From: Terriglobia bacterium
GTDB taxonomy: Bacteria > Acidobacteriota > UBA6911
NCBI GenBank assembly: GCA_020072565.1
Contig: JAIQGI010000032.1
Coordinates: 1-64,000, forward strand
Reading direction: 5' to 3'
DNA: 64,000 nucleotides
Shown here: piece by piece, positions 849 to 54,584 of the stretch
How positions within the stretch are numbered: position 1 is the first letter of the stretch
Layout of the letters: each line of letters opens with the position of its first letter
Notes under the pieces: generated by a model
Database searches by the model: none
What the model was told of the DNA's origin: nothing
Seen by the model: the letters and a program-made list of their open reading frames with translations, nothing else
Program-made: the position numbers and the translations under genes

Positions 849-871
849 GGGGATCGGGGACTGACGACGGT
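848..871 (+). repeat. Copy 1 of G-rich GGGGACTGACGAC core motif
   Basis: G-tracts followed by ggggactgacgacggtaa. The same core occurs at about 3004-3022, 11718-11735 and, inverted, at 14417-14434. Here it sits exactly where IS3 orfB homology ends. Only the core is shared; the longer extension seen in the 11.7 kb and 14.4 kb copies is absent. Confidence 0.6.
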
Positions 872-906
872 AAGTCTCTAAAACCAAAAGACGTTAGCGC
901 AAAGGG

Positions 907-952
907 AGGCCTGAAAATCGGCGTTGCGCCCGATTTTCAGGCCTCTTTTTTT
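907..952 (+). terminator. Rho-independent terminator-like hairpin left of the IS1634 element
   Basis: A perfect 15-bp stem (907-921 pairing with 930-944) with an 8-nt loop is followed by a cytosine and a run of seven T. It lies between the orfB remnant and the left end of the IS1634-like element, where it would stop readthrough into the transposase from outside. It is outside the terminal inverted repeat, so it may belong to the older sequence. Confidence 0.8.
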
Positions 953-956
953 GTTC

Positions 957-2976
957 TAACCCGACTTTGACAACTCGACCCCGCTTTTCTCTATTTTTGA
1001 CCTGTTCGTGTCTGTAACTCTTCTATTGCCAACAGCGGGTTTACGCCAAGCCTCTGTAGTGAAGACCCACCCTCTTGACCTGCCCATTGGGACGTGGAAA
1101 ATGTCGCCATGTTTCTTCGTTACACGCAGCGAAAGAAAGACGGGAAACTGCACCGCTACTGGAGCATCGTTGAGAATCACCGTGGTGAGGGCAGACGAGT
1201 AGTCCAGCGACAGGTACTCTACCTGGGCGAGATCAACGACAGCCAAGAAGCAGCCTGGTGCCGAAGCATCGAGGTGTTTGAGTCGGGGACGGGCCACTGG
1301 CGTCAGGTTTCACTTTTCCCCGAGGATCGTGAAGCACCGGAACTGGCGCATGAGGTTGTCCACGTTTGTTTGGATCAACTGCAGCTTAGACGGCCGCGGC
1401 AATGGGGAGCGTGCTGGTTGGCATCTGAGTTATGGCGACAGCTGACGCTGGATGACTTTTGGCGCGAGAAGCTCAGGCCGAGTCGTGAAGGAACCGACTG
1501 GCTGGACGTGTTGAAGATTCTTGTGAGCTATCGCTTGATCGATCCCGGCAGTGAATGGCGGCTGCACCGTGAGTGGTATCACCGTTCGGCGATGCGTGAC
1601 CTCCTTGGGCGCACCGGTGACACCGTCGAGTTGCAGTCGCTGTACCGATGCCTGGACTTGCTGCTCGATCACAAGCGCGACCTGTTCAGCTTTCTGACCG
1701 AGCGCTGGCAAGATCTGTTTGAGGCCAGATACGAAGTTTTACTGTATGACCTGACCAGCACCTATTTTGAATGCGATCCTCCCGAGCATGGCAAGCGACG
1801 GCATGGCTACAGCCGCGACAAACGTCCGGACTGTGTGCAGGTGGTGATCGCGCTCGTGATCACGCCGGAAGGATTTCCGCTGGCATACGAGGTGATGACG
1901 GGAAACACCAGCGATAAGACCACGCTCAAAGCATTCCTCGAGAAGATCGAAAACCAGTATGGGAAAGCCAATCGGGTTTGGGTCATGGATCGCGGGATCC
2001 CGACCGAGGACATTCTGCGTGAAATGCGGACGGCAACCACGCCGGTATCCTATTTGGTCGGGACGCAACGAGGGCGGCTGACGAAACTGGAAAGAGAGTT
2101 TTTGAAACTGCCATGGGCGAGGGTGAAGGACTCTCTGGAAGTGAAACTCTTGCCGCAGGAGGGAGAGCTGTACATCCTGGCCCGCAGCCAAGGCCGCAGG
2201 AAGAAGGAGCGCGCGATGCGGCGGCGCCGGCTCAAAAAACTGTGGCACCGTCTTCATGAGTTGCAACGGCAGAAACTGACGCGCGATGAATTACTGTTGA
2301 AGCTTGGGGCAGCCAAGGCGGAAGCCGGCAAAGCTTATCGGCTGGTGGAAGTTCATGTGCCCAGCGCCAAAGAACCAGTCAATGCCGAGACCTTCACCTT
2401 TTCTGTGCGCAAAGAGAAACTCCGAGCGGCCATGCGTACTGAAGGCGATTATCTACTGCGCTCGAATCTCTCGGGCGAGGACCCGGCAATCCTGTGGCAG
2501 CGGTATATTCAGCTGACGGAAATCGAGGCGGCCTTTCGCAATCTGAAGAGTGATCTGGCCATCCGGCCGATTCACCATCAGAAGGATCCGCGCATCGAGG
2601 CACACATCTTCATTGCGTTTCTGGCCTACTGTCTCTACGTCACGTTACAGCAGCGGCTGCGGGCTTTGGCGCCCGGGCTCACGAGCAGAGCCGTAATCGA
2701 GAAGATGACCGCCATCCAGATGATTGACGTTCACCTACCAACCACGGACGGCAGGATGCTTATCCTCTCCCGATATACGCAACCGGAACCAGATCACCAA
2801 CTGCTGCTGCAGCGGCTCCACCTGATGCTGCCGGCGCAGCCACCGCCCAAAATCTCTCAACAGGGCGAAAATGACGCCACCGAGCCCATAGCTTTGTAGT
2901 GAAGACCTACGAGTTTCTTGAACGCAGAATCAATGACTTAGAGAGATTTTGAGCCCCAGTTGTCAAAGTCGGGCTA
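957..2976 (+). mobile_element. IS1634-like (IS4 superfamily) insertion sequence, complete
   Basis: The element is bounded by imperfect terminal inverted repeats of 19 bp, taacccgactttgacaact at 957-975 and its complement (one mismatch) at 2958-2976, giving about 2.02 kb. It encodes one long DDE transposase. Inside the ends a 14-nt direct repeat, tgtagtgaagacc plus flanking bases, occurs at about 1055-1069 and 2895-2909. I could not identify a target-site duplication: the five bases on each side differ. That suggests age, a later rearrangement, or slightly misplaced ends. Confidence 0.8.
1109..2899 (+). CDS. IS1634-family DDE transposase
   Basis: The protein is 596 aa from the ATG at 1109 (MFLRYTQRKKDGKLHRYW), the usual N-terminus of this family; an upstream GTG at 1094 would add five residues. 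The transposase cuts and joins element ends using a DDE metal centre. Visible catalytic blocks are LLYDLTSTYFE (first Asp, about residue 214), VWVMDRGIPTED (second Asp, about 294) and YIQLTEIEAAFRNLK (the glutamate block, about 471). A basic insertion with RRKKERAMRRRRLKKLW lies between the second and third blocks. Length and all three blocks are intact, so the gene could be active. It fills nearly the whole element. Confidence 0.9.
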   Translation: MFLRYTQRKKDGKLHRYWSIVENHRGEGRRVVQRQVLYLGEINDSQEAAWCRSIEVFESGTGHWRQVSLFPEDREAPELAHEVVHVCLDQLQLRRPRQWGACWLASELWRQLTLDDFWREKLRPSREGTDWLDVLKILVSYRLIDPGSEWRLHREWYHRSAMRDLLGRTGDTVELQSLYRCLDLLLDHKRDLFSFLTERWQDLFEARYEVLLYDLTSTYFECDPPEHGKRRHGYSRDKRPDCVQVVIALVITPEGFPLAYEVMTGNTSDKTTLKAFLEKIENQYGKANRVWVMDRGIPTEDILREMRTATTPVSYLVGTQRGRLTKLEREFLKLPWARVKDSLEVKLLPQEGELYILARSQGRRKKERAMRRRRLKKLWHRLHELQRQKLTRDELLLKLGAAKAEAGKAYRLVEVHVPSAKEPVNAETFTFSVRKEKLRAAMRTEGDYLLRSNLSGEDPAILWQRYIQLTEIEAAFRNLKSDLAIRPIHHQKDPRIEAHIFIAFLAYCLYVTLQQRLRALAPGLTSRAVIEKMTAIQMIDVHLPTTDGRMLILSRYTQPEPDHQLLLQRLHLMLPAQPPPKISQQGENDATEPIAL

Positions 2977-3662
2977 AGGCATTTGCATCGGGAACGGGGG
3001 AACGGGGACTGACGACAGCAACCTATGGACCCGAAAAAGCAATACGCGGTTTCAGGAGCTCCAGGACCCGCTTAGACGCAAAAAGCCGGTCCGTTTTTGG
3101 GTTTTGACCAGGTTTGCATTGGCGGCGCCGGACTAGGTGCAACATTCCTTCGCCAAGAGCAAGCTTCAAGCCGCCTCCCAAGCCTCGGCCTTGTGTTTAA
3201 GACTGCCTGTCCTCTTTCCAATCCCTGCAGTGAGGCGCCCGGTGGACAGCCTGGGGTAACGAGCCTCGTTCCCACTGCCATTCCCGCACCGGTTGGAGTG
3301 CCCTTCCGGCGTGAGTACTCCGAATGACGATCGATCCGGAAACGCGTGGATGTTTTGTTGGAAGTTCCCGGTTCGATCGAGCCCCTTTCTGCAGAAAGAA
3401 ATGGGTTGACGTCCCCATTTAGATTCCCACCAGGTCTGGTTTGTTTGGGCGTAAAATCAACCATCGGTGGCGGTTTGGGGCGAATCCGCGCGCCTGGTTG
3501 ACATAAGACCTCCATGTCGGAAGCTGGTGGGATCACATGCAGGAGGTCCTGCCGGGGAGGACGACCGCAATCACGCAGCTTATTTCGCCTATCCATGTGA
3601 AGCGCTGACTACCGTGGCGCAGTATCAAAAGCAGGAGTTGCTCTCTTCCGGCAGTTCGCCTC
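2977..3662. other. Intergenic region, no convincing gene
   Basis: This 686-bp gap follows the IS element. A second copy of the G-rich core motif lies at about 2990-3022. Open frames exist on both strands, but none has a ribosome binding site, a recognisable domain or sensible composition. It may contain decayed sequence. Confidence 0.6.
2990..3022 (+). repeat. Copy 2 of G-rich GGGGACTGACGAC core motif
   Basis: Repeated G-tracts (gggaacgggggaacgg) precede ggggactgacgacagcaa. It begins 13 bp after the right inverted repeat of the IS1634-like element, while copy 1 lies about 85 bp before the left inverted repeat, so the two copies bracket the element in the same orientation. Confidence 0.6.
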
Positions 3663-10360: not shown

Positions 10361-11699
10361 ACTCGTACCGCTATTGGCGCTCTCGTTTTTCCTGTACGGG
10401 TGTCCTCGCCCATCCCAGTATGTACGCCCCGGATTGCCGGTCCCTCCGACCTGGCCGGAAAGCTCTGCCGCCGGGGCCGGTGCGCGGGGTGCGCCGGCCG
10501 CCGGCGATCTGAAGTGGCAGGAATTCTTCACCGATCAGCGGCTCCAGTCTGTGATCGGGCTGGCGCTGGCGAACAACCGCGATCTCAGGGCGGCCTCGCT
10601 CAACATCGAAAAGGTCCAGGCTCTGTATCGGATTCAGCGCGCCCAACCTTACCCCACCGTTATCGCCTCGGCCAGCGGCGATGCCTACCGGGTGCCGGAA
10701 AACCTTTCCGGCAAGGACCACGCGGAAACGATCTCGCAGTACACCGTGGGACTGGGCACGACTTCGTGGGAACTGGATCTCTTCGGACGGATCCGTAGCC
10801 TGAAGACTCAGGTACTGGAACAATATTTGGCGACCGATCAGGCACGGTCGGCCGCCGACCGGGAAGGCCTGAAGCTGGCGCAAGATACTCTCGATGCCCA
10901 ACAGGCTTCCTTCGATTTGATCAAGCGCACTGCGGAACTCGGCATGGCGTCTGACCTGGATGTGCGACAGGCGCAAAGCCAGGTGGAAGCGGCTCGCCTC
11001 GATATTGCCGGCTTTTCGGGCCAGGTGGCCCAGGACGAAAACGCGCTCAACCTGTTGGTCGGCACACCCGTAGCCCCGGGCATGCTGGCCGATGCACTGA
11101 GCAAGGTCTCAGATTTAAAGGAAATCGCGGCCGGCGTGCCGTCCGACGTGCTGCTGCGCCGCCCCGACATTCTCGCGGCCGAGCACCAGTTGATGGCTGT
11201 CAATGCGAATATCGGCGCGGCGCGCGCTGCGTTCTTCCCCCGGATCGCTCTTACCGCCGCCCTCGGGATCACCAGCAGTGATCTGACAAACCTGTTCAAA
11301 CCCGCTGCTGGGACCTGGAACTTCGCACCGCAGGCGACCCTCCCGATATTTGACTACGGGGCCCGGCGGGCCGCGTACAAGGCGGCAACTGTGGATCGGG
11401 ATATCGCGGTGGCCGAGTACGAGAAATCGATTCAGTCGGCCTTCAGGGAGGTGAGCGACGCCTTGAGCCAACGCACCGCGCTGGCCAACCAGCAGCAAGC
11501 GCTGCAATCACTCATCGATGCGTTGCAGGAAACCTATCGGCTTTCCGAAGCCCGATACAAGGGAGGGATCGACAGCTATCTGAGTGTCCTCATCGCCCAG
11601 CGCTCCGTGTATGCCGCTCAACAGCAGATGGTCGGCATACGGCTGGCACGACTGAGCAATCTTGTCACACTTTATAAGGTACTGGGTGGCGGAGCCTGA
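10353..11699 (+). CDS. RND efflux outer-membrane lipoprotein (NodT/OprM, TolC family)
   Basis: This 448-aa protein is the outer-membrane channel of the tripartite pump. It starts at an ATG inside the 3' end of the permease gene. The lipoprotein signal ends in LYG-C17. Two repeated TolC/OEP halves are visible: the first with LANNRDLRAASLNIEKVQALYRIQRA and TVGLGTTSWELDLFGRIRSL, the second with LRRPDILAAEHQLMAVNANIGAARAAFFPRI and EYEKSIQSAFREVSDAL. The order adaptor-permease-channel on one strand is complete, so the pump should not need an external TolC. The stop codon is followed at once by a G-rich interspersed repeat. Confidence 0.94.
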   Translation: MRKLVPLLALSFFLYGCPRPSQYVRPGLPVPPTWPESSAAGAGARGAPAAGDLKWQEFFTDQRLQSVIGLALANNRDLRAASLNIEKVQALYRIQRAQPYPTVIASASGDAYRVPENLSGKDHAETISQYTVGLGTTSWELDLFGRIRSLKTQVLEQYLATDQARSAADREGLKLAQDTLDAQQASFDLIKRTAELGMASDLDVRQAQSQVEAARLDIAGFSGQVAQDENALNLLVGTPVAPGMLADALSKVSDLKEIAAGVPSDVLLRRPDILAAEHQLMAVNANIGAARAAFFPRIALTAALGITSSDLTNLFKPAAGTWNFAPQATLPIFDYGARRAAYKAATVDRDIAVAEYEKSIQSAFREVSDALSQRTALANQQQALQSLIDALQETYRLSEARYKGGIDSYLSVLIAQRSVYAAQQQMVGIRLARLSNLVTLYKVLGGGA

Positions 11700-11810
11700 G
11701 GGTGGGGGATGCGGATGGGGGACTGACAACGGCAAGGTGCTGACCAGTCAGTACTTTGACACTTCTCTACCCTCCAAATTCCCGCTTACATCAACAAAAC
11801 AGGCCTGATT
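11700..11810 (+). repeat. Interspersed repeat A, copy 1, abutting the efflux operon stop
   Basis: Starting at the base after the TGA, G-tracts lead into gggggactgacaacggcaag, followed by about 85 bp ending near ggcctgattattgaa. A second copy lies on the minus strand at 14340-14450. By eye the two align without gaps over about 100 bp with roughly 16 mismatches. Both begin directly after a stop codon and run in the direction of that gene. Confidence 0.75.
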
Positions 11811-11983
11811 ATTGAAGTTAACAATCAAACACGGCTTTTGGATGAACTCTTATTCCTGCCAAGCATCTGAATATTGCTGCCGGATGTGGGTTCCGGCGCA
11901 AATAAACTGGCCCCGCAGGCACTTGACCTGCGGATTAGGAGGAGAAGTTCGGAACGACAAGGAAAAGAAGGTGGAGTTACCTG

Positions 11984-12493
11984 ATGTTGCCGGCAGTACT
12001 GGGACTCTGCCTGAATGCAATGCCGGGAATCGTCCGGGCACAGACGGCTGCGGCAGCGCAGGCTCCGGATCTGTTGCGGCCATTGAAGATAGCGTTGGGT
12101 GAGGCCGGCGTGGCCGCTCTCACCAGCGATCAGGAGGCGGCAATTATGGCTTTGATCACAGACTTCCGGGCCCAAACCGCGCCCGTTGTCAGTGCGACGC
12201 GAGCCAGCTACTATAACTATATCCTCAGCGGCGATGCAACGGATGCCGTGGTATTGTTGCCGGCGCTGATGTCCGTCGAGAATGCGCAGGCTCAGGCACG
12301 AGCGCAGGCAAGAATCAACTTTGCCGCGGGTGTCGCCGCCGCTTTGACGAGCGCTCAGATGACCGCACTGCAAGCTAAGTTTAGCGACGAACAGATCGTC
12401 CGTTTTATTGAAGCCCTTGCGGGAGGCCCGGGCGGGATGAGGGGAGCGCGTGGCGCCCTCGGGCCGGCTTCGCCAACGCCTTTCAGAAGGTAA
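11984..12493 (+). CDS. Small exported protein of unknown function
   Basis: I do not recognise this 169-aa protein. Its first 19 residues are signal-like and end in VRA-Q; the mature part is Ala-rich and helical, with paired LTSDQEAAIMALITDFRAQ and LTSAQMTALQAKFSDEQ segments of the kind seen in short periplasmic Spy/LTXXQ-like proteins, and a Gly/Pro-rich tail. The start is doubtful: a strong Shine-Dalgarno (taggagga, 11936-11943) is followed in this frame by an open stretch encoding TTRKRRWSYL just before the Met, a good basic n-region, but with no ATG, GTG or TTG. A start at the ACG at 11954 or a mutated start codon is possible. It stands alone between two gaps. Confidence 0.6.
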   Translation: MLPAVLGLCLNAMPGIVRAQTAAAAQAPDLLRPLKIALGEAGVAALTSDQEAAIMALITDFRAQTAPVVSATRASYYNYILSGDATDAVVLLPALMSVENAQAQARAQARINFAAGVAAALTSAQMTALQAKFSDEQIVRFIEALAGGPGGMRGARGALGPASPTPFRR

Positions 12494-12513
12494 CGACTGC
12501 CATAACTGTGGAA

Positions 12514-12539
12514 CGGGCCCGCCGACAGCTGCGGGCCCG
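12514..12539 (+). terminator. GC-rich hairpin downstream of the small exported protein gene
   Basis: A perfect 9-bp stem, cgggcccgc (12514-12522) with gcgggcccg (12531-12539), begins 20 bp after the stop codon. No T-run follows, so it is not a classic intrinsic terminator; it may protect the 3' end or be an incidental dyad. Confidence 0.4.
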
Positions 12540-12783
12540 ATGCTCGGCGGAAAATGCAACAGAATGCGCTCTATCCCGCGCTCAGAGGCGCAAATTCTTT
12601 CAAATGAAGAATCCTGAATAAGGTATCTCGCTTGGCCCGCTGGGTAAAAAGGAAATAGGAAACGTGGCACAGCCTGAAATCGATGCATCCGCCCCCCGGC
12701 TCGCTCCCCGCCCTGACTACAGGTTCCCGCCGCGTTTTGTGGTGATAAGAACCACCGTTTGATTCCTGCGCGTTCTCGTCCTG

Positions 12784-14079
12784 TTGTGTTATGTGCTCGT
12801 GCCCGTCGGCCTTTATTCGCAACAGAAACGGCAGATGCCTCCTCCTGACGAAAGTGCTTATGGGTCAAAATTCTTCGATCAGCTGCACAGCATCTTTGGC
12901 ATATTTCGAAATGAAGATCTTCAACGTGTATTTCAAAGGGCTCAACCGATCCAATGCTCCGAGCTGGTAGCCAGCAAGGGGCAGTGGAAAACCGTTGCGT
13001 TTTTTAATGAGGATCGCAGCCTGGGCGAATGGTGCCGCAACACCATTGAAGAAGTGAAAGCAGATCTATCCGTCTACACCTTCTCCGGATCCTGTAATGG
13101 AGAGCAAGGGGCGGTCCAGGTGACAACGGAATTCCCGGTGGGCGCAAGCATCGAACTCTATAACGAAGCGAAAATCGGCCTGGATCAGATCGATGTCAAT
13201 GTTAACGCGCCGGTGAATGCCACCTTTGATCCGGGCACTCAGGCGTATATCTTCGAGCTTCCCTACCTTTTCCTGACAGGACAACGCAGCTCCGGGAACA
13301 TTTACAGCCTCGTCGCACCCCGCACCGAAGACAGGTATGCCACGGACGTGACGAGCCGCTGGGAATGCAAGATAGTAAAATCAGACGATTTGACCTACCG
13401 TTTTCTGATTTGCCGGACGGCGACTGTGCCACGCAACCCGGCAGTGAGGAACCAGAAGCGGGAACTGAGCTTCGGCGCGTCTGCCTACTTTATTCTGTCT
13501 GACGGCATGGAAGCGCAGACAAGTGTGCATCTGTCGTTCGGCGATGCCGGCCGTCGTACCGATAGTTCCCAGGACACCGTGCCGTCTGATCCTTCCCGTG
13601 CGCGCCCGGTCCTCATAAGAAAGGGAGCGATCACGGGCCGCGGGTCTTGGCAGGTGCCGGATGTGCATTCTAAATTCGCCGATGTCGGAAACAACGAATT
13701 CAGGCTGCGCTTCAACTCTCAAACCTGGACCGGCAAGATCCGTTCTTCCGAGATCTTGGCGGATCAGAAACTGTCGAGCCCGCAATCGGCCAAACTGCAG
13801 CAAGGCGAAGACTATTGCACCTGGCATCCAGCGGCTGCGGATCTTGTGGACCTTTTGCTGGCAAGCGAGCCTGATGCGAATGTTTCGTACTCCGCGGAAG
13901 GATTCGACAGAAACAGCTTGGAGGCTGCATCGATTGTCATTTACCTGAAGACCCATGAAGGTAGTCGTATAGGAACCCTGCAATGCTTCTTCCCACACAC
14001 GGAATCCGCGTCGAAAATCGATTTTGACCGCTGGGTATCCATTGTTGGCGGACATCTCACGCTGGAGATCAAACGGTAA
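12784..14079 (+). CDS. Exported protein of unknown function
   Basis: I do not recognise this 431-aa protein. It has two copies of a beta-rich region: residues about 30-220 with five to six Cys and a GQWKTVAFFNEDRSLGEWC block, and about 280-420 with FRLRFNSQTWTGKI. Cysteines appear in pairs suited to disulphides. The only in-frame start is a TTG at 12784; the frame is open back to the TGA at 12760 and the residues just upstream (LRVLVL) would extend the hydrophobic signal peptide that ends before YSQQK, so the true start may be a non-standard or damaged codon upstream. Base composition is lower in GC than neighbours. Confidence 0.65.
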   Translation: MCYVLVPVGLYSQQKRQMPPPDESAYGSKFFDQLHSIFGIFRNEDLQRVFQRAQPIQCSELVASKGQWKTVAFFNEDRSLGEWCRNTIEEVKADLSVYTFSGSCNGEQGAVQVTTEFPVGASIELYNEAKIGLDQIDVNVNAPVNATFDPGTQAYIFELPYLFLTGQRSSGNIYSLVAPRTEDRYATDVTSRWECKIVKSDDLTYRFLICRTATVPRNPAVRNQKRELSFGASAYFILSDGMEAQTSVHLSFGDAGRRTDSSQDTVPSDPSRARPVLIRKGAITGRGSWQVPDVHSKFADVGNNEFRLRFNSQTWTGKIRSSEILADQKLSSPQSAKLQQGEDYCTWHPAAADLVDLLLASEPDANVSYSAEGFDRNSLEAASIVIYLKTHEGSRIGTLQCFFPHTESASKIDFDRWVSIVGGHLTLEIKR

Positions 14080-14451
14080 GATTAAACGCATCTTCGAGAG
14101 CTTTTCTCATTTCGAGTCTGAAACCACGAACTCTGACCGTGCGACCTGGAAGGATCCCGTCAGCCGCCAATTTCCTCAATATACCCGTTCGATCCATCAA
14201 CATTGAGGGGAGCGTCCCCCATTCCTATTCTTCAATCTAAGGACTGTATCCGAGATGCTGGGGTAATTCCCGATTGTGCGTCTCCCACTCTCCCGGGCTG
14301 TCGAAAATCGCCGCGCATGGTCATCGGTCTTATGTTCAATAATCAGGCTTGTTTTTTCGATATAAACGGGAATTTGAAGGGTGGAGAATTGTCGAAATAT
14401 CGTCCGGCCAGCACCTTGCCGTCGTCAGTCCCCCATCCCCCATCCCCACTG
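14080..14451. other. Convergent intergenic region
   Basis: This gap lies between two converging genes. The right third is interspersed repeat A copy 2. The remaining 250 bp contain no gene that I can support. Confidence 0.6.
14340..14450 (-). repeat. Interspersed repeat A, copy 2, abutting the VWFA gene stop
   Basis: Read on the minus strand, it begins two bases after the TGA of the VWFA-domain gene with tandem ggggat tracts, then gggggactgacgacggcaag, and runs about 100 bp to gcctgattattgaa. It is about 84 percent identical to copy 1 at 11700-11810 without gaps (counted by eye). Confidence 0.75.
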
Positions 14452-16239
14452 TCATCGCCCGATCACCCACCTGCTGCCCAGCCGGTCGCCCTGCATGTCA
14501 TAGACCACAGCGACGACAAACTCTGTGTTGCTTTTGCGCGGAATAACCACGGAGATGGGGATGCCCTCCCGCAAGGCCGCCTGATAACGCTCGTCAGTGC
14601 GTTGCACGTCCGCGGTTCTCCACTCCGCACCGAGATAGTTTGAGTCTGCATCGGCGTAAAAGACGGCAATGCGCAGGCGCGCGGCATGGATGCCGCCGAT
14701 GGTCTTGAAGCTAACTTTCGTCAGATCCACCTTCAGGTCGATCTTGAACTGGATTTGTCCGGCGTCGTCTTTGATTCTCGACGCTTTGATGTCGAGAGGG
14801 ATGTCGGTATATTCCACCTTCCGGGTGCCCTGAACGCCCGCACCGTTGATGCGGGTCCAGGCCAGAAACTCGACAGGATCGTAGCGCTGCAACTTTTCAC
14901 GGGCATAGTAGCCGTGCCTGTACTGGACTTTCACCCCGGACCGGTTCACTTTGACGCTGATCCCCCGAAACTTTCCGTCCCAATTTTCATTGTCAGGATA
15001 ATAACCAAGCAGGTACTCGACCCGGGAACTGTCAAGAACGCGGGAAAGGGCATCCCCGACATTCTGATAGGCCGAGGAACGTCCGCCCGTCAGTTGAGAG
15101 ACGTTGCTCATGCTCTGTATGGCAAACGTCTCCGCCCAATCCCTTGCCACAGGCACACCGCGTGGGCCCGCTCCGGGAACCGATCCGGCGCCGGAGAGGC
15201 CGCCGGTCTGGAACGTGTCGATGGCAACGCGAGCGTCGTTGGCGACGGCTGCGATGCCCTGGTCGTACTCAGTTTTTCCAAAAGGGAAGGTCAGGCCACG
15301 TTCGCTGAAAAACAAAAGGTGTTTCTCTCCTTCGACATAGCGAAGATATTCGATACATGTGAAAATATTGCCCGCATCAGCCATCGTGCTTCTGGAGCGG
15401 ACAGCGAATTCGTCAAACGGCAGCCAGAGCATGGCGGCATCCGCAGCGAACGATTCGAGCTCCGTAGTCGCGGAGCCTTCCACGGTGCCGAGCACCACGC
15501 CCGCCGCCCTCTGCCATTGCCGGTAAGCCTCGGCTTCCCCGGTCACCTGGCCGGGAGGCACCTGGCGGGAACCCAGCCCCCGCGCGCTTTCGAAAATCCT
15601 GTCGATGTCGGGCTGCAGCGTCTTGGGAAACTCCTTGCTTCCGAACAGCGAGGCGAGGCCTGCGCTGAAATTCTGCAGCCGGTATTCTATGCTCTCGTGC
15701 GCGCCTTTGTAGGCCTCGAGCGCCTGAGCGATCTTCTCATGGTCGGTGGTGAAGTCCGTGGCACGGTTGTAGGCGAACAGAGCCACCCGGTCCTGGGGCA
15801 AGAGATTCTTGCGGACGAACTGGATCAGAACATCAACCGTCTTGAACGGCAGCTGGTAGCGGCCCCGGCCCATCAGAATGAGAAATACGCGAGACGTCTG
15901 GGGGGAAAGTTCTGCCGCCGGAATCGGACGGAGCACGGACGCCGGTTCCGGCATGGGGGCGGCTGCGTCGAAATTCTGCACGGAAAAATGCCGGATCTCC
16001 TGAGGTTTCCCATTTTCGAAAATGCGAAAGTCTTCCTGCTTGAGACCGGTCACCGGCCGGCCGCGCGAGTCTGTGACGATCACATCTACCGGAACCAGGC
16101 GCACGCGGGCCCGGTAAGTTCCCGGAGGGGCGGTTTGCTGGCCCTTAGGCGCGCCTTGGCCGAGCACCAACGCAATGGGCAGAGAGACTGGAAGACCAAA
16201 AACAAACATGATCAGGACGGCGTGCCGCAGACATCGCAT
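14452..16239 (-). CDS. Exported VWFA-related acidobacterial domain protein
   Basis: The 595-aa product has a signal peptide (first 28 residues, ending VLGQ) and the acidobacterial VWFA-related architecture: an N-terminal beta domain with RLVPVDVIVTDSRGRPVTGL and QEDFRIFENGKPQEI, a VWA-like fold and a C-terminal domain with YLLGYYPDNENWDGKFR and VKVQYRHGYYA. In typical members the VWA MIDAS site reads DxSxS; here that position is LILMGRGRYQ (about 118-127), so metal binding of the usual kind is probably lost. The role of the family is unknown; secretion and adhesion-like folds suggest protein-protein contacts outside the cytoplasm. It is transcribed alone. Confidence 0.88.
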   Translation of the reverse strand: MRCLRHAVLIMFVFGLPVSLPIALVLGQGAPKGQQTAPPGTYRARVRLVPVDVIVTDSRGRPVTGLKQEDFRIFENGKPQEIRHFSVQNFDAAAPMPEPASVLRPIPAAELSPQTSRVFLILMGRGRYQLPFKTVDVLIQFVRKNLLPQDRVALFAYNRATDFTTDHEKIAQALEAYKGAHESIEYRLQNFSAGLASLFGSKEFPKTLQPDIDRIFESARGLGSRQVPPGQVTGEAEAYRQWQRAAGVVLGTVEGSATTELESFAADAAMLWLPFDEFAVRSRSTMADAGNIFTCIEYLRYVEGEKHLLFFSERGLTFPFGKTEYDQGIAAVANDARVAIDTFQTGGLSGAGSVPGAGPRGVPVARDWAETFAIQSMSNVSQLTGGRSSAYQNVGDALSRVLDSSRVEYLLGYYPDNENWDGKFRGISVKVNRSGVKVQYRHGYYAREKLQRYDPVEFLAWTRINGAGVQGTRKVEYTDIPLDIKASRIKDDAGQIQFKIDLKVDLTKVSFKTIGGIHAARLRIAVFYADADSNYLGAEWRTADVQRTDERYQAALREGIPISVVIPRKSNTEFVVAVVYDMQGDRLGSRWVIGR

Positions 16240-19346: not shown

Positions 19347-19410
19347 GGAAGCTGCAGGGGACGCAGCCCAGGAGAGGAGACCACCAACTTGGCAGGTTAT
19401 TTCACCCATC
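19347..19410 (+). repeat. Interspersed repeat B, copy 1 (64 bp)
   Basis: The block from ggaagctgcaggggacgcag to ggttatttcacccatc is repeated at 35312-35375 with four substitutions. It contains a small dyad, gctgc-N7-gcagc. The flanks of the two copies are unrelated. Confidence 0.8.
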
Positions 19411-35164: not shown

Positions 35165-35472
35165 ATGCGGCCTTCAATCATCGTGTCGGTCACGACGCAG
35201 ATCTCCTGCCCTGGAAGTATGCAAAAAATCAGTATCCTGTGGTATCGTCAGGGCTGACAATCCTTCGCCGGGCGTCGTTCACGCCTCGTAGCTGGCACAA
35301 AGCCCCATATTGGAAGCTGCAAGGGACGCAGCCCAGGAGAGGAGACCACCAACTCGGCAGGTTATCTCACCTATCTGTTATCCGTCGACGAACTTCGTCA
35401 AATAGTGCGGAACCTCGTCGACCCGGGCGGGGCCCGCCTGCGGCACTTTGGTGTTCACATCGGAGATCAGTC
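35165..35472. other. Intergenic region carrying repeat B copy 2
   Basis: The 308-bp gap contains the 64-bp repeat at 35312-35375. No gene is supported. Confidence 0.6.
35312..35375 (+). repeat. Interspersed repeat B, copy 2 (64 bp)
   Basis: This block matches 19347-19410 over 64 bp with four substitutions, all transitions. It lies about 100 bp upstream of the exported zinc peptidase gene on the same strand. Confidence 0.8.
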
Positions 35473-44213: not shown

Positions 44214-44576
44214 AAGCGCGACCCTGAAAGGGTCGGCCAGAAAAGCCCAGGGCGCGAGCCCTTAAGCGCTAAGATAGGAATGATTTTGCCAATAAACGTG
44301 GACTTGGACCTAAACCTGGACGTAGACGTGGACCCTTTGAGCGGAGACAAACTCTTGCACGCCGAGCCTTTATCAGGCTACGGGTCGCTTCTTATCGCTT
44401 GCGGCGCAGCAGAGCGTCAAGGTCCACGTCCAAGTCCAGGTCGGGAAAGTGGGTTAAGTTAGCGCTTATGGGCGCGAGCCCTGGGAACAGAGGAACAAAT
44501 CACAGCAAGCCCTGTAAGCGCGACCCTGAAAGGGTCGGCCAGAATAGCCCAGGGCGCGAGCCCTGGGATAGGACGC
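44214..44576. repeat. REP-like palindromic repeats
   Basis: Two nearly identical units, each built of gcgaccctgaaagggtcggc followed by agcccagggcgcgagccct, lie at 44218-44265 and 44518-44566. A partial unit (gggcgcgagccctggga) lies at about 44469-44486. Each contains its own small stem-loops. Confidence 0.75.
44299..44447. repeat. Degenerate hexamer-repeat inverted pair, copy 3
   Basis: The left arm repeats gac-gtg/ttg/cta/ctg steps (cgtggacttggacct, acctggacgtagacgtggac, 44298-44334). The right arm, 44421-44445, reads ggtccacgtccaagtccagg and is complementary. The design matches the elements at 23.2 and 33.5 kb, but the hexamer is different. Confidence 0.55.
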
Positions 44577-47572: not shown

Positions 47573-47768
47573 ACCACAAAATACACGGCGCGGAATACCC
47601 GCAACCCAAATCCTCAACAGAGGTCGCAGAGACCGCAGAGGATTTTCGCCTCTGTTACTTTTCTCCGCGACCTCTGCGCCCTCTGCGATGATCTTTCGCT
47701 TTTCTTGCCTAAATGGCAAGAATCTGCAGGGAAGTAGTACGAAACCGGTCCTGCGTGATTCGTGCGTT
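47573..47768 (+). repeat. MITE-like repeat C, copy 1 (about 195 bp)
   Basis: The sequence is alignable along its whole length with the inverted copy at 54394-54584. Shared blocks include cacggcgcgg/cagggtgcgg, the long ctctgcg-type palindrome and a segment atctttcgcttttcttgcct followed by aaatggcaag. The terminal inverted repeats are degraded in this copy. Confidence 0.7.
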
Positions 47769-47798
47769 GCGCGGTTTATCGGGGGCAGTTTCTCTGGC

Positions 47799-53229: not shown

Positions 53230-54393
53230 ATGGTTGTGAAGGAAGAGTTGAGCGGCGAACAGCTGGCGGCGCTGATCGAGAGAGTTTTTCGCCTGCGGCC
53301 CTCGGATCGCGCGTTGGCGGTCCTGGTTGACTTGCCCGATCGTGCTCGCGGCGACACGGCCGAGTGGCGGGAGCGCCGGGAAATGGCGGAGCAATGGGTG
53401 CGCCGGCTTGTTCCCTGCCGGCAGCGGCTCGGTCTCGAGGTTCATCTCTACCTGTACCGCAACGTGAGAACCAACAACGCCGATCTCCCGCGCGGTGCGT
53501 GGCTGCACAGCGGCGGTCCGCTGCCGCGAACTGCGGAAGAGCTCGACGCGTTGGCCGAGGAGCCGTTTCCCGACATCTTTCGGGCGCACAGCATTCTGAT
53601 GGCCATTACGGAGCTCTCTGCTACTGCGCCGCTCAAACTGATGGCCAGGACCTTTGCCTTCCGTGCCGCCACCATGCCCGGCTTTTCACCCGCGATGATT
53701 CCCTCGCTGCGCCTCGATTATGAAGAGATCAACAGCAGGGTGATGAAGCTCAAGGAGATGCTCGACCGCGCCGAGGGAGCCGATCTGGCCTTCCAGGTGG
53801 AACGCGGCCCGGAGTACACGCTCTTCCTTGATCTGCGTCACCGGCCTGCACACGCTTCGGGTGGGCTGCTCCATGAACCCGGTACGGCCGGTAACCTCCC
53901 CTCCGGCGAGGCCTACATCGTTCCCTACGAAGGCGAAATCGCAGGAACGCCCAGTGCTTCAGCCGGCCGGCTTCCGGTGCAGTTCGGCAATGAAGTGGTC
54001 ATCTACGAGATTGAACGGAACAGCGCCGTGCGGGTCACCGGTTCGGGCGCCGCCGCACGCCGCGAGGCGGAGCACATCGCGCGCGAGCCCGCCTACGGCA
54101 ACATCGCCGAACTGGGGCTCGGGGTGCTCTCGGACTTCGGAGTCAAGCCCTGCGGCTCGCTCCTGCTCGATGAGAAACTCGGCCTTCACATCGCCTTCGG
54201 CCGCAGCGATCATTTCGGGGGACGCGTGGGCGCAGCCCAATTCTCCCGTCCGGAGGAAGTGGTGCACATCGATCGCGTCTATCTGCCGTCCGTGCAGCCG
54301 ATGGTGCACGTGCGCCGAGTAGATCTGCGCGGGCCGGGGACTGAGATCCCCTTGATGCGTGACAATCGCTTTGTCGTCGATTTCGCGCGCTAA
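53230..54393 (+). CDS. M29-like (aminopeptidase T-like) metallopeptidase family protein
   Basis: The ATG at 53230 is preceded by aaggaggcg; an upstream frame is ignored. The 387-aa protein has no signal peptide. Its C-terminal half holds the M29-like metal region: NLPSGEAYIVPYEGE (about 225-240), GNIAELGLGVLSDFG, LGLHIAFGRSDHFGG and EVVHIDRVYLPSV, where the E-x-x-x-x-P-E, H-x-x-G and H-x-D residues correspond to ligands in aminopeptidase T and related enzymes. The N-terminal half is helical and unfamiliar. Assignment rests on this motif set, so the exact reaction is uncertain. A MITE-like repeat abuts its stop codon. Confidence 0.68.
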   Translation: MVVKEELSGEQLAALIERVFRLRPSDRALAVLVDLPDRARGDTAEWRERREMAEQWVRRLVPCRQRLGLEVHLYLYRNVRTNNADLPRGAWLHSGGPLPRTAEELDALAEEPFPDIFRAHSILMAITELSATAPLKLMARTFAFRAATMPGFSPAMIPSLRLDYEEINSRVMKLKEMLDRAEGADLAFQVERGPEYTLFLDLRHRPAHASGGLLHEPGTAGNLPSGEAYIVPYEGEIAGTPSASAGRLPVQFGNEVVIYEIERNSAVRVTGSGAAARREAEHIAREPAYGNIAELGLGVLSDFGVKPCGSLLLDEKLGLHIAFGRSDHFGGRVGAAQFSRPEEVVHIDRVYLPSVQPMVHVRRVDLRGPGTEIPLMRDNRFVVDFAR

Positions 54394-54584
54394 AGCCACG
54401 AAATCCGCGAAAAACGCGAAAGGGCCTTCGAACTATTTACCTTCAGGCCCTTGCCATTCAGGCAAGAAAAGCAAAAGATCAACGCAGGGGCCGCGGAGAA
54501 GAGTCCTGCTGAAGCGAAAATCCCCTGCGGCCTCTGCGTTGAGGCTTTAGGTTGCGCCTATGCCGCACCCTGTGTTTCGTGGCT
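54394..54584 (-). repeat. MITE-like repeat C, copy 2 (191 bp)
   Basis: It starts at the base after the TAA of the M29-like gene. Its ends are inverted copies of agccacgaaa (54394-54403 and 54575-54584). It is a diverged inverse copy of 47573-47768. It ends 15 bp before the thiD start and covers the region where a promoter or ribosome binding site would lie. Confidence 0.75.

Follow-up and report, generated by a model that had tools for sequence, protein, structure and literature searches.

A repeat behind two stop codons in a Terriglobia genome is probably the end of a small mobile element with a matching RAYT-type transposase

Introduction

Why do two genes of one Terriglobia bacterium (GenBank assembly GCA_020072565.1), an outer membrane efflux channel gene and a VWFA gene, run at their stop codons into the same sequence? 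Both lie in the first 64,000 nucleotides of contig JAIQGI010000032.1, the stretch analyzed here and called the window, to which positions refer. An earlier reading of the letters alone (the sequence-only reading) had seen a repeat of ~100 bp that starts exactly at the stop, and had suggested a transcript-end structure, an RNA gene or an element that targets gene ends, with G-tracts that could fold into a quadruplex. We searched the whole genome (7.46 Mb, 135 contigs) and genomes of the class, and all support reported here is comparative, from sequence against sequence. We propose, with a probability of about 0.82, that both copies are degraded, non-autonomous mobile elements of ~300 bp whose ends match those of a RAYT gene, and that this RAYT would move them in trans. 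The probable mover is a tyrosine (HUH) transposase whose gene lies elsewhere in this genome.

Results

The repeat itself is real. Copies 1 and 2 form an inverted pair of 125 nt (11697-11821 on the plus strand, 14330-14454 on the minus strand) that is 81% alike without gaps, and in the genome search BLAST aligned copy 1 with copy 2 at 84% across 113 nt with an E-value of 8.5e-28, far above chance. Its supposed start at the stop holds only for a G-rich run, which in copy 1 follows the stop immediately and in copy 2 after a gap of a few bases; the conserved block opens with GGGGACTGACNACGGCAA 18 nt past the stop codon in both copies, their heads GGGGACTGAC lie at 11718 and 14433, and the nucleotides between stop and head form a variable junction that is unlike between the two. 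The estimated length of ~100 bp has to be revised as well, since copy 2 is longer: it matches 210 bp of an intact 297-bp element (C50) at 86% identity, from 14433 down to 14224, where it ends short, truncated at its second end. Copy 1 matches 99 bp of one end of the C50 element at 92% identity and is possibly followed by a remnant of ~20 bp, which resembles C74 and C50 near position 240-260 (90-94% over 18-20 nt) in a match that is weak alone. The window contains two further heads of this family, one at 856 and one at 3004.

11700..11717, plus strand: variable G-rich junction of copy 1, from the efflux channel stop codon to the element head; differs among copies.
11718..11824, plus strand: end unit of copy 1, with head GGGGACTGACAACGGCAA, spacer and dyad CTTA...TTAAC; profile match with E 3.1e-15, 92% identity to 99 bp of the C50 element.
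11916..11936, plus strand: possible opposite-end remnant of copy 1; short match to C74/C50, E 0.05.
14224..14433, minus strand: copy 2, truncated at the second end; 86% identity to the C50 element, profile match with E 4.6e-16.
14434..14451, minus strand: junction of copy 2, from the VWFA gene stop to the head, with a 7-bp tandem duplication, GGATGGG.GGATGGG, that runs into the head.
856..959, plus strand: third unit, at the point where an IS3-type reading frame is cut, itself split by an insertion sequence; E 4.9e-14.
3004..3109, plus strand: fourth unit, with the 8-bp junction duplication GGGAACGG.GGGAACGG; E 5.2e-14.

The window also holds other repeats and insertions. The IS3-type frame (605-970) is cut at 856 by the third unit; no close uninterrupted relative of it was found in the class, nor an empty site there. 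The insertion sequence at 960-2973, with ends CCCGACTTTGACAACT/AGTTGTCAAAGTCGGG and a 601-amino-acid transposase-like open reading frame (1094-2899), sits in the CTAA of the same unit and is accompanied by an apparent 4-bp duplication of CTAA. A 64-bp direct repeat (94% identical; 19347-19410 and 35312-35375) is unrelated to the element. There are also two direct repeats of 49 bp at a distance of 302 bp (98% identity; 44214-44262 and 44516-44564) and a 106-nt inverted pair with 74% complementarity (47672-47777 and 54393-54498).

One arrangement that an inverted pair brings to mind, a single 2.75-kb transposon (11700-14451) bounded by copies 1 and 2, was rejected: both copies are the same type of end, and copy 2 runs on into its own second half. 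The two genes between the copies gave zero Pfam or NCBIfam matches, and hence no transposase was found there.

The intact element became apparent from the rest of the genome. The 18-nt head, with one mismatch allowed, occurs at 26 genome loci, compared with 0 for a reversed control pattern; the ~100-bp end has six strong copies in the genome search, and a profile of the end made from sequence only has 42 matches. Many heads were observed in inverted pairs at set spacings (297 bp three times, 253-255 bp twice and 176 bp once), which defines an intact element of ~300 bp with two inverted ends of ~108 bp. An alignment of forty units, drawn from three genera, is nearly gap-free and resolves into the head GGGGACTGACGACGNNAA, ~50 nt of variable spacer and a block of 38 bp. 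The motif GGGGACTG is found in 39 of the 40 heads and GGGGCCTG in the remaining one. The block, CTTAnAn...AAAAA...GGCC...TTTTT...nTnTAAG, lies ~50 nt inward of the invariant head GGGGACTGACNACGNNAA and is a clear dyad, ~5 standard deviations above other symmetry centers. Covariation analysis, which the sequence-only reading had proposed, detected none between the two sides of the dyad and so gave no evidence of the hairpin in single-stranded DNA that REP biology would predict.

Units of the family are present in 8 of 38 class genomes (profile, E ≤ 0.01), and the exact 18-mer head in four class genomes. Among the latter are G027 and G035, which are identical in sequence to the public metagenome-assembled genomes CTSoil_012 and nzgw75, respectively; G027, an assembly of 720 contigs, contains units and no close RAYT. 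In a genome from another family of the class (G023), two loci (L150 and L158) combine a head, GGGTCGGACCTCATG, with the same TTCTAAG end and represent a further relative of this end type.

The genome encodes eight Y1-type transposases. One gene, at C59:2890-3657, lies between inverted heads of the family at 2639 and 3760, and no such heads were found near the remaining seven. Its product, the RAYT, is encoded by a single copy, matches Pfam Y1_Tnp (PF01797) at 3e-10 (40.7 bits, above the gathering cut-off of 23) and matches the NCBIfam REP_Tyr_transpos model at 3.7e-19, under the cut-off; RAYT scores against this model (NF047646) were 69.1, 67.9 and 75.7 bits, below its cut-off of 80, with E-values down to 3e-21. 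The HUH and Y residues are present in NHTH, whose middle residue departs from the usual hydrophobic one, and in YIDLN, and a search of solved structures with the RAYT sequence gave no match. The NHTH motif, the single copy of the RAYT and the lack of a close RAYT in G027 count against the proposed reading. In G035, which belongs to another genus of the same family, a RAYT with 61% identity is likewise enclosed by GGGGACTGAC heads (locus C365), so that the same ends are directly seen to flank an HUH/Y1 gene in two genera.

Other RAYT genes are accompanied by variant ends. A second RAYT in G035 has a GGGGTCGGACC unit on its upstream side and groups outside the GGGGACTGAC pair, the RAYT of G033 lies between two units of the family, of which the upstream one has the head GGGGTCGGACC, and those of G034 and G029 sit between GGGGACGGACCAG arms. 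The two transposases with GGGGACTGAC ends form a group in a small tree (support 0.998). Together with the tree, the matched end variants indicate that the end type follows the transposase lineage, even inside one genome. Judged from these sequences, related RAYT lineages carry different yet related ends, and end type tracks transposase type.

The G-tracts at the junctions have a different explanation from the one proposed. Tandem duplications of 6 to 18 bp in register with the head precede 14 of 52 heads, against an expectation of 0.24 both at other GGGG sites of the same loci and with shuffled flanks. The duplicated units vary (CATCGGGG, GCATATGG, GAATCGG and GGATGGG), and two duplications, of 17 bp in G027 (C642) and 10 bp in G035 (C430), include the head's own ACTGAC, showing that at least some arose after insertion. 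These duplications account for the G-tracts without a quadruplex, and the quadruplex of the sequence-only reading was discarded: the G-tracts are not a conserved motif, and in other copies this place is taken by AGTCATAT or CATCGGGG, or shows no repeat.

Slippage at the G-run and nicking by the transposase are both possible origins of the duplications. With rather low probability, the RAYT or the head itself might drive the local expansion of a tandem repeat of 6 to 18 bp composed of flank and the G-run of the head, which would turn each inserted end into a small repeat-generating site. In a limited literature search, the junction duplications were the sole part of the finding that we did not find described, and no description of a repeat-generating side activity of RAYT-type HUH enzymes was found; the word "tandem" is absent from Quentin et al. 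(2018, PMC6006769), and where it is used by Di Nocera et al. (2013, PMC3733652) it refers to whole REPs. The G-rich junctions could instead represent the target, if the element inserted into preexisting G-rich or tandem-repeat DNA. In favor of this, the bases just ahead of the head tend toward a GRAY-like sequence in this genome, and G027 carries TGAGGATC at the place of TGAGGGTGGGGGATG here. We nevertheless hold this to be rather unlikely as the source of the G-tracts, because the duplications that contain head bases must postdate insertion and because the repeat units vary in sequence yet keep their register with the head.

Target-site duplications, which would indicate a different class of enzyme, were absent. 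At 13 elements tested we found none longer than 3 nt, and none of the 13 had a convincing one, which fits HUH enzymes but not DDE enzymes. This weighs against a MITE of a DDE-type insertion sequence, a reading under which the RAYT gene lies between two ends by coincidence, as a passenger. Classical MITEs do have long inverted ends and a similar size (~250-300 bp), and DDE elements are present in the window (the open reading frame at 1094-2899). However, two genera each have a RAYT enclosed by matching ends, related RAYTs come with related ends, and the transposase that matches this family is of the Y1 type, which leaves a DDE origin improbable.

An equally small probability is given to active targeting of gene 3' ends. 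The exact junction to the stop codon is not a general feature: the distance of 29 heads to the upstream gene edge ranges from -115 (inside the gene) to +866, and 12 of the 29 are upstream of a gene start. The 26 heads outside genes face stops (15) and starts (11) about equally (P = 0.70). What survives of the idea is a modest excess close to stops. Eleven of 45 heads lie within 25 nt of a stop, against 4.3% in a random-intergenic model; after removal of the two copies that prompted the analysis and of four heads whose own sequence provides the stop codon, the count is 5 of 39 where 1.7 are expected (P = 0.026). We take this excess as weak, given that the genes were called with a home-made gene caller and the null model is from one 64-kb window. 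The four self-stop heads also end a reading frame, 9 nt inside the element, by the TGA in GGG GAC TGA; selection against insertion elsewhere would yield the same pattern as targeting. Hence, of the gene-end-targeting element envisaged at the outset, the mobile-element end is retained and the targeting of stops is no rule. The refuting condition set in the sequence-only reading, a lack of preference for stop-adjacent sites among genome-wide copies, had a mixed outcome.

Orthologous genes in sister genomes lack the element. The efflux channel orthologue in G027 (85% identical DNA) remains homologous until two bases past the stop and then continues into unrelated DNA without the element, and the orthologous ends of the gene beside the C50 element are likewise free of it in G024 and G027. 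Homology thus breaks at the gene end whether the element is present or not. Synteny in the sister genomes is lost past the stop, so that no true empty site, conserved on both flanks, turned up; the VWFA gene gave only weak partial matches in G027. According to Di Nocera et al. (PMC3733652), REPs in general are mostly found downstream of genes. The placement after stop codons would mostly reflect where such insertions survive, with no gene-end signal.

The reading with the least in its favor is a 3'-end RNA element (a terminator, an mRNA stabilizer or a small RNA) retained for the genes upstream of it. Both window copies directly follow stop codons, heads are mildly in excess within 25-50 nt after stops, and one subfamily (856, C106 and C120; L016 856-959 and L028/L029 1501-1611) forms a strong, GC-rich hairpin with a T-run behind it, with a z-score of -3.0 for C106. 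On the other hand, Rfam gave no match, RNAalifold found no consensus pair in 26 units, pair counts were negative, copy 1 folds no better than its shuffles (z = 0.41), heads are also oriented toward starts (11 of 26) or located inside genes, and orthologous genes do without the repeat. An RNA gene or structured transcript end was therefore rejected for copy 1 and the family. The hairpin and T-run of the subfamily could terminate transcription in one direction. With no covariation, no RNAalifold pair and ordinary single-strand folds outside that subfamily, we read the dyad as a DNA signal.

Discussion

The mobile-element reading, in which a RAYT moves non-autonomous elements, explains a puzzling repeat without a new RNA or a new gene-end system. 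In our hypothesis both head and dyad are bound by the RAYT, which, in the manner of IS200/IS605-type enzymes, would cleave single-stranded DNA at the head and mobilize the element in trans. An insertion behind a stop codon would do no harm, and the in-frame TGA of the head can end a reading frame; for these two reasons copies would persist at such places. The G-tracts at the junctions, to judge from their register with the head, may be small tandem duplications of flank and head that form after insertion, and these short duplications are an unexpected trace. The acidobacterial family allows transposase lineages to be matched side by side with their DNA ends (GGGGACTGAC, GGGGTCGGACC and GGGGACGGACC), which could be useful for studying DNA recognition by TIR-type RAYTs, little studied compared with that of GTAG-type REPs.

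How does the family compare with known systems? A literature text search for GGGGACTGAC gave no prokaryotic-repeat paper among the matches listed. With IS200/IS605 elements (TnpA Y1) the family shares an HUH/Y1 transposase and the lack of target-site duplications; those elements have subterminal hairpins, usually many near-identical copies and the Y motif Y---Q, whereas here the ends are terminal and inverted and the motif is YIDLNM. REPs, REPINs and BIMEs with their RAYTs (REPtrons) are more similar, being non-autonomous inverted doublets that are tied to a RAYT, extragenic and often downstream of genes. However, REPs are hairpins of 20-40 nt with a GTAG or GGAG foot (GT[AG]G), whereas the ends described here are ~108 nt long, have the foot GGGGAC and show no GTAG foot, consensus pairs, covariation or demonstrable hairpin.

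Among known systems the nearest is the TIRtron, which Di Nocera et al. (2013, PMC3733652) described as a RAYT gene flanked by long terminal inverted repeats (TIRs); the TIR families are moderately abundant, are arranged as dimers and frequently contain the motif GGGGWSAS. Most TIRtron transposases (TIRYTs) were placed in TnpAY1 subclass 2.1, with a C-terminal HTH domain and the motifs NH[VYF]H, W[EQ] or FQ and Y[IV][EH]LNP (Quentin et al. 2018, PMC6006769). The present RAYTs depart from this subclass: no HTH domain was matched in Pfam up to an E-value of 5, and they carry NHTH/NHVH, W[SNG] and YIDLNM. The head GGGGACTG has T and not A at position 7 and so differs by one base from GGGGWSAS, a motif found in some but not all of the published TIRs. 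In the text examined, Di Nocera et al. (PMC3733652) mention neither a bipartite end of 108 bp whose 38-bp dyad is distal nor micro-duplications at the junctions. Other features agree. A RAYT-like Y1 gene lies between long terminal inverted repeats unrelated to GTAG in this genome (G000 C59) and in G035 (C365), with variant ends in G033, G034 and G029, and the repeat family is dispersed, moderately abundant and often dimeric (42 matches in this genome, inverted pairs of 176-297 bp), with G4-headed ends. By sequence, then, the family fits the TIRtron definition, and an acidobacterium, Koribacter, is already among the published TIRtron hosts (PMC3733652).
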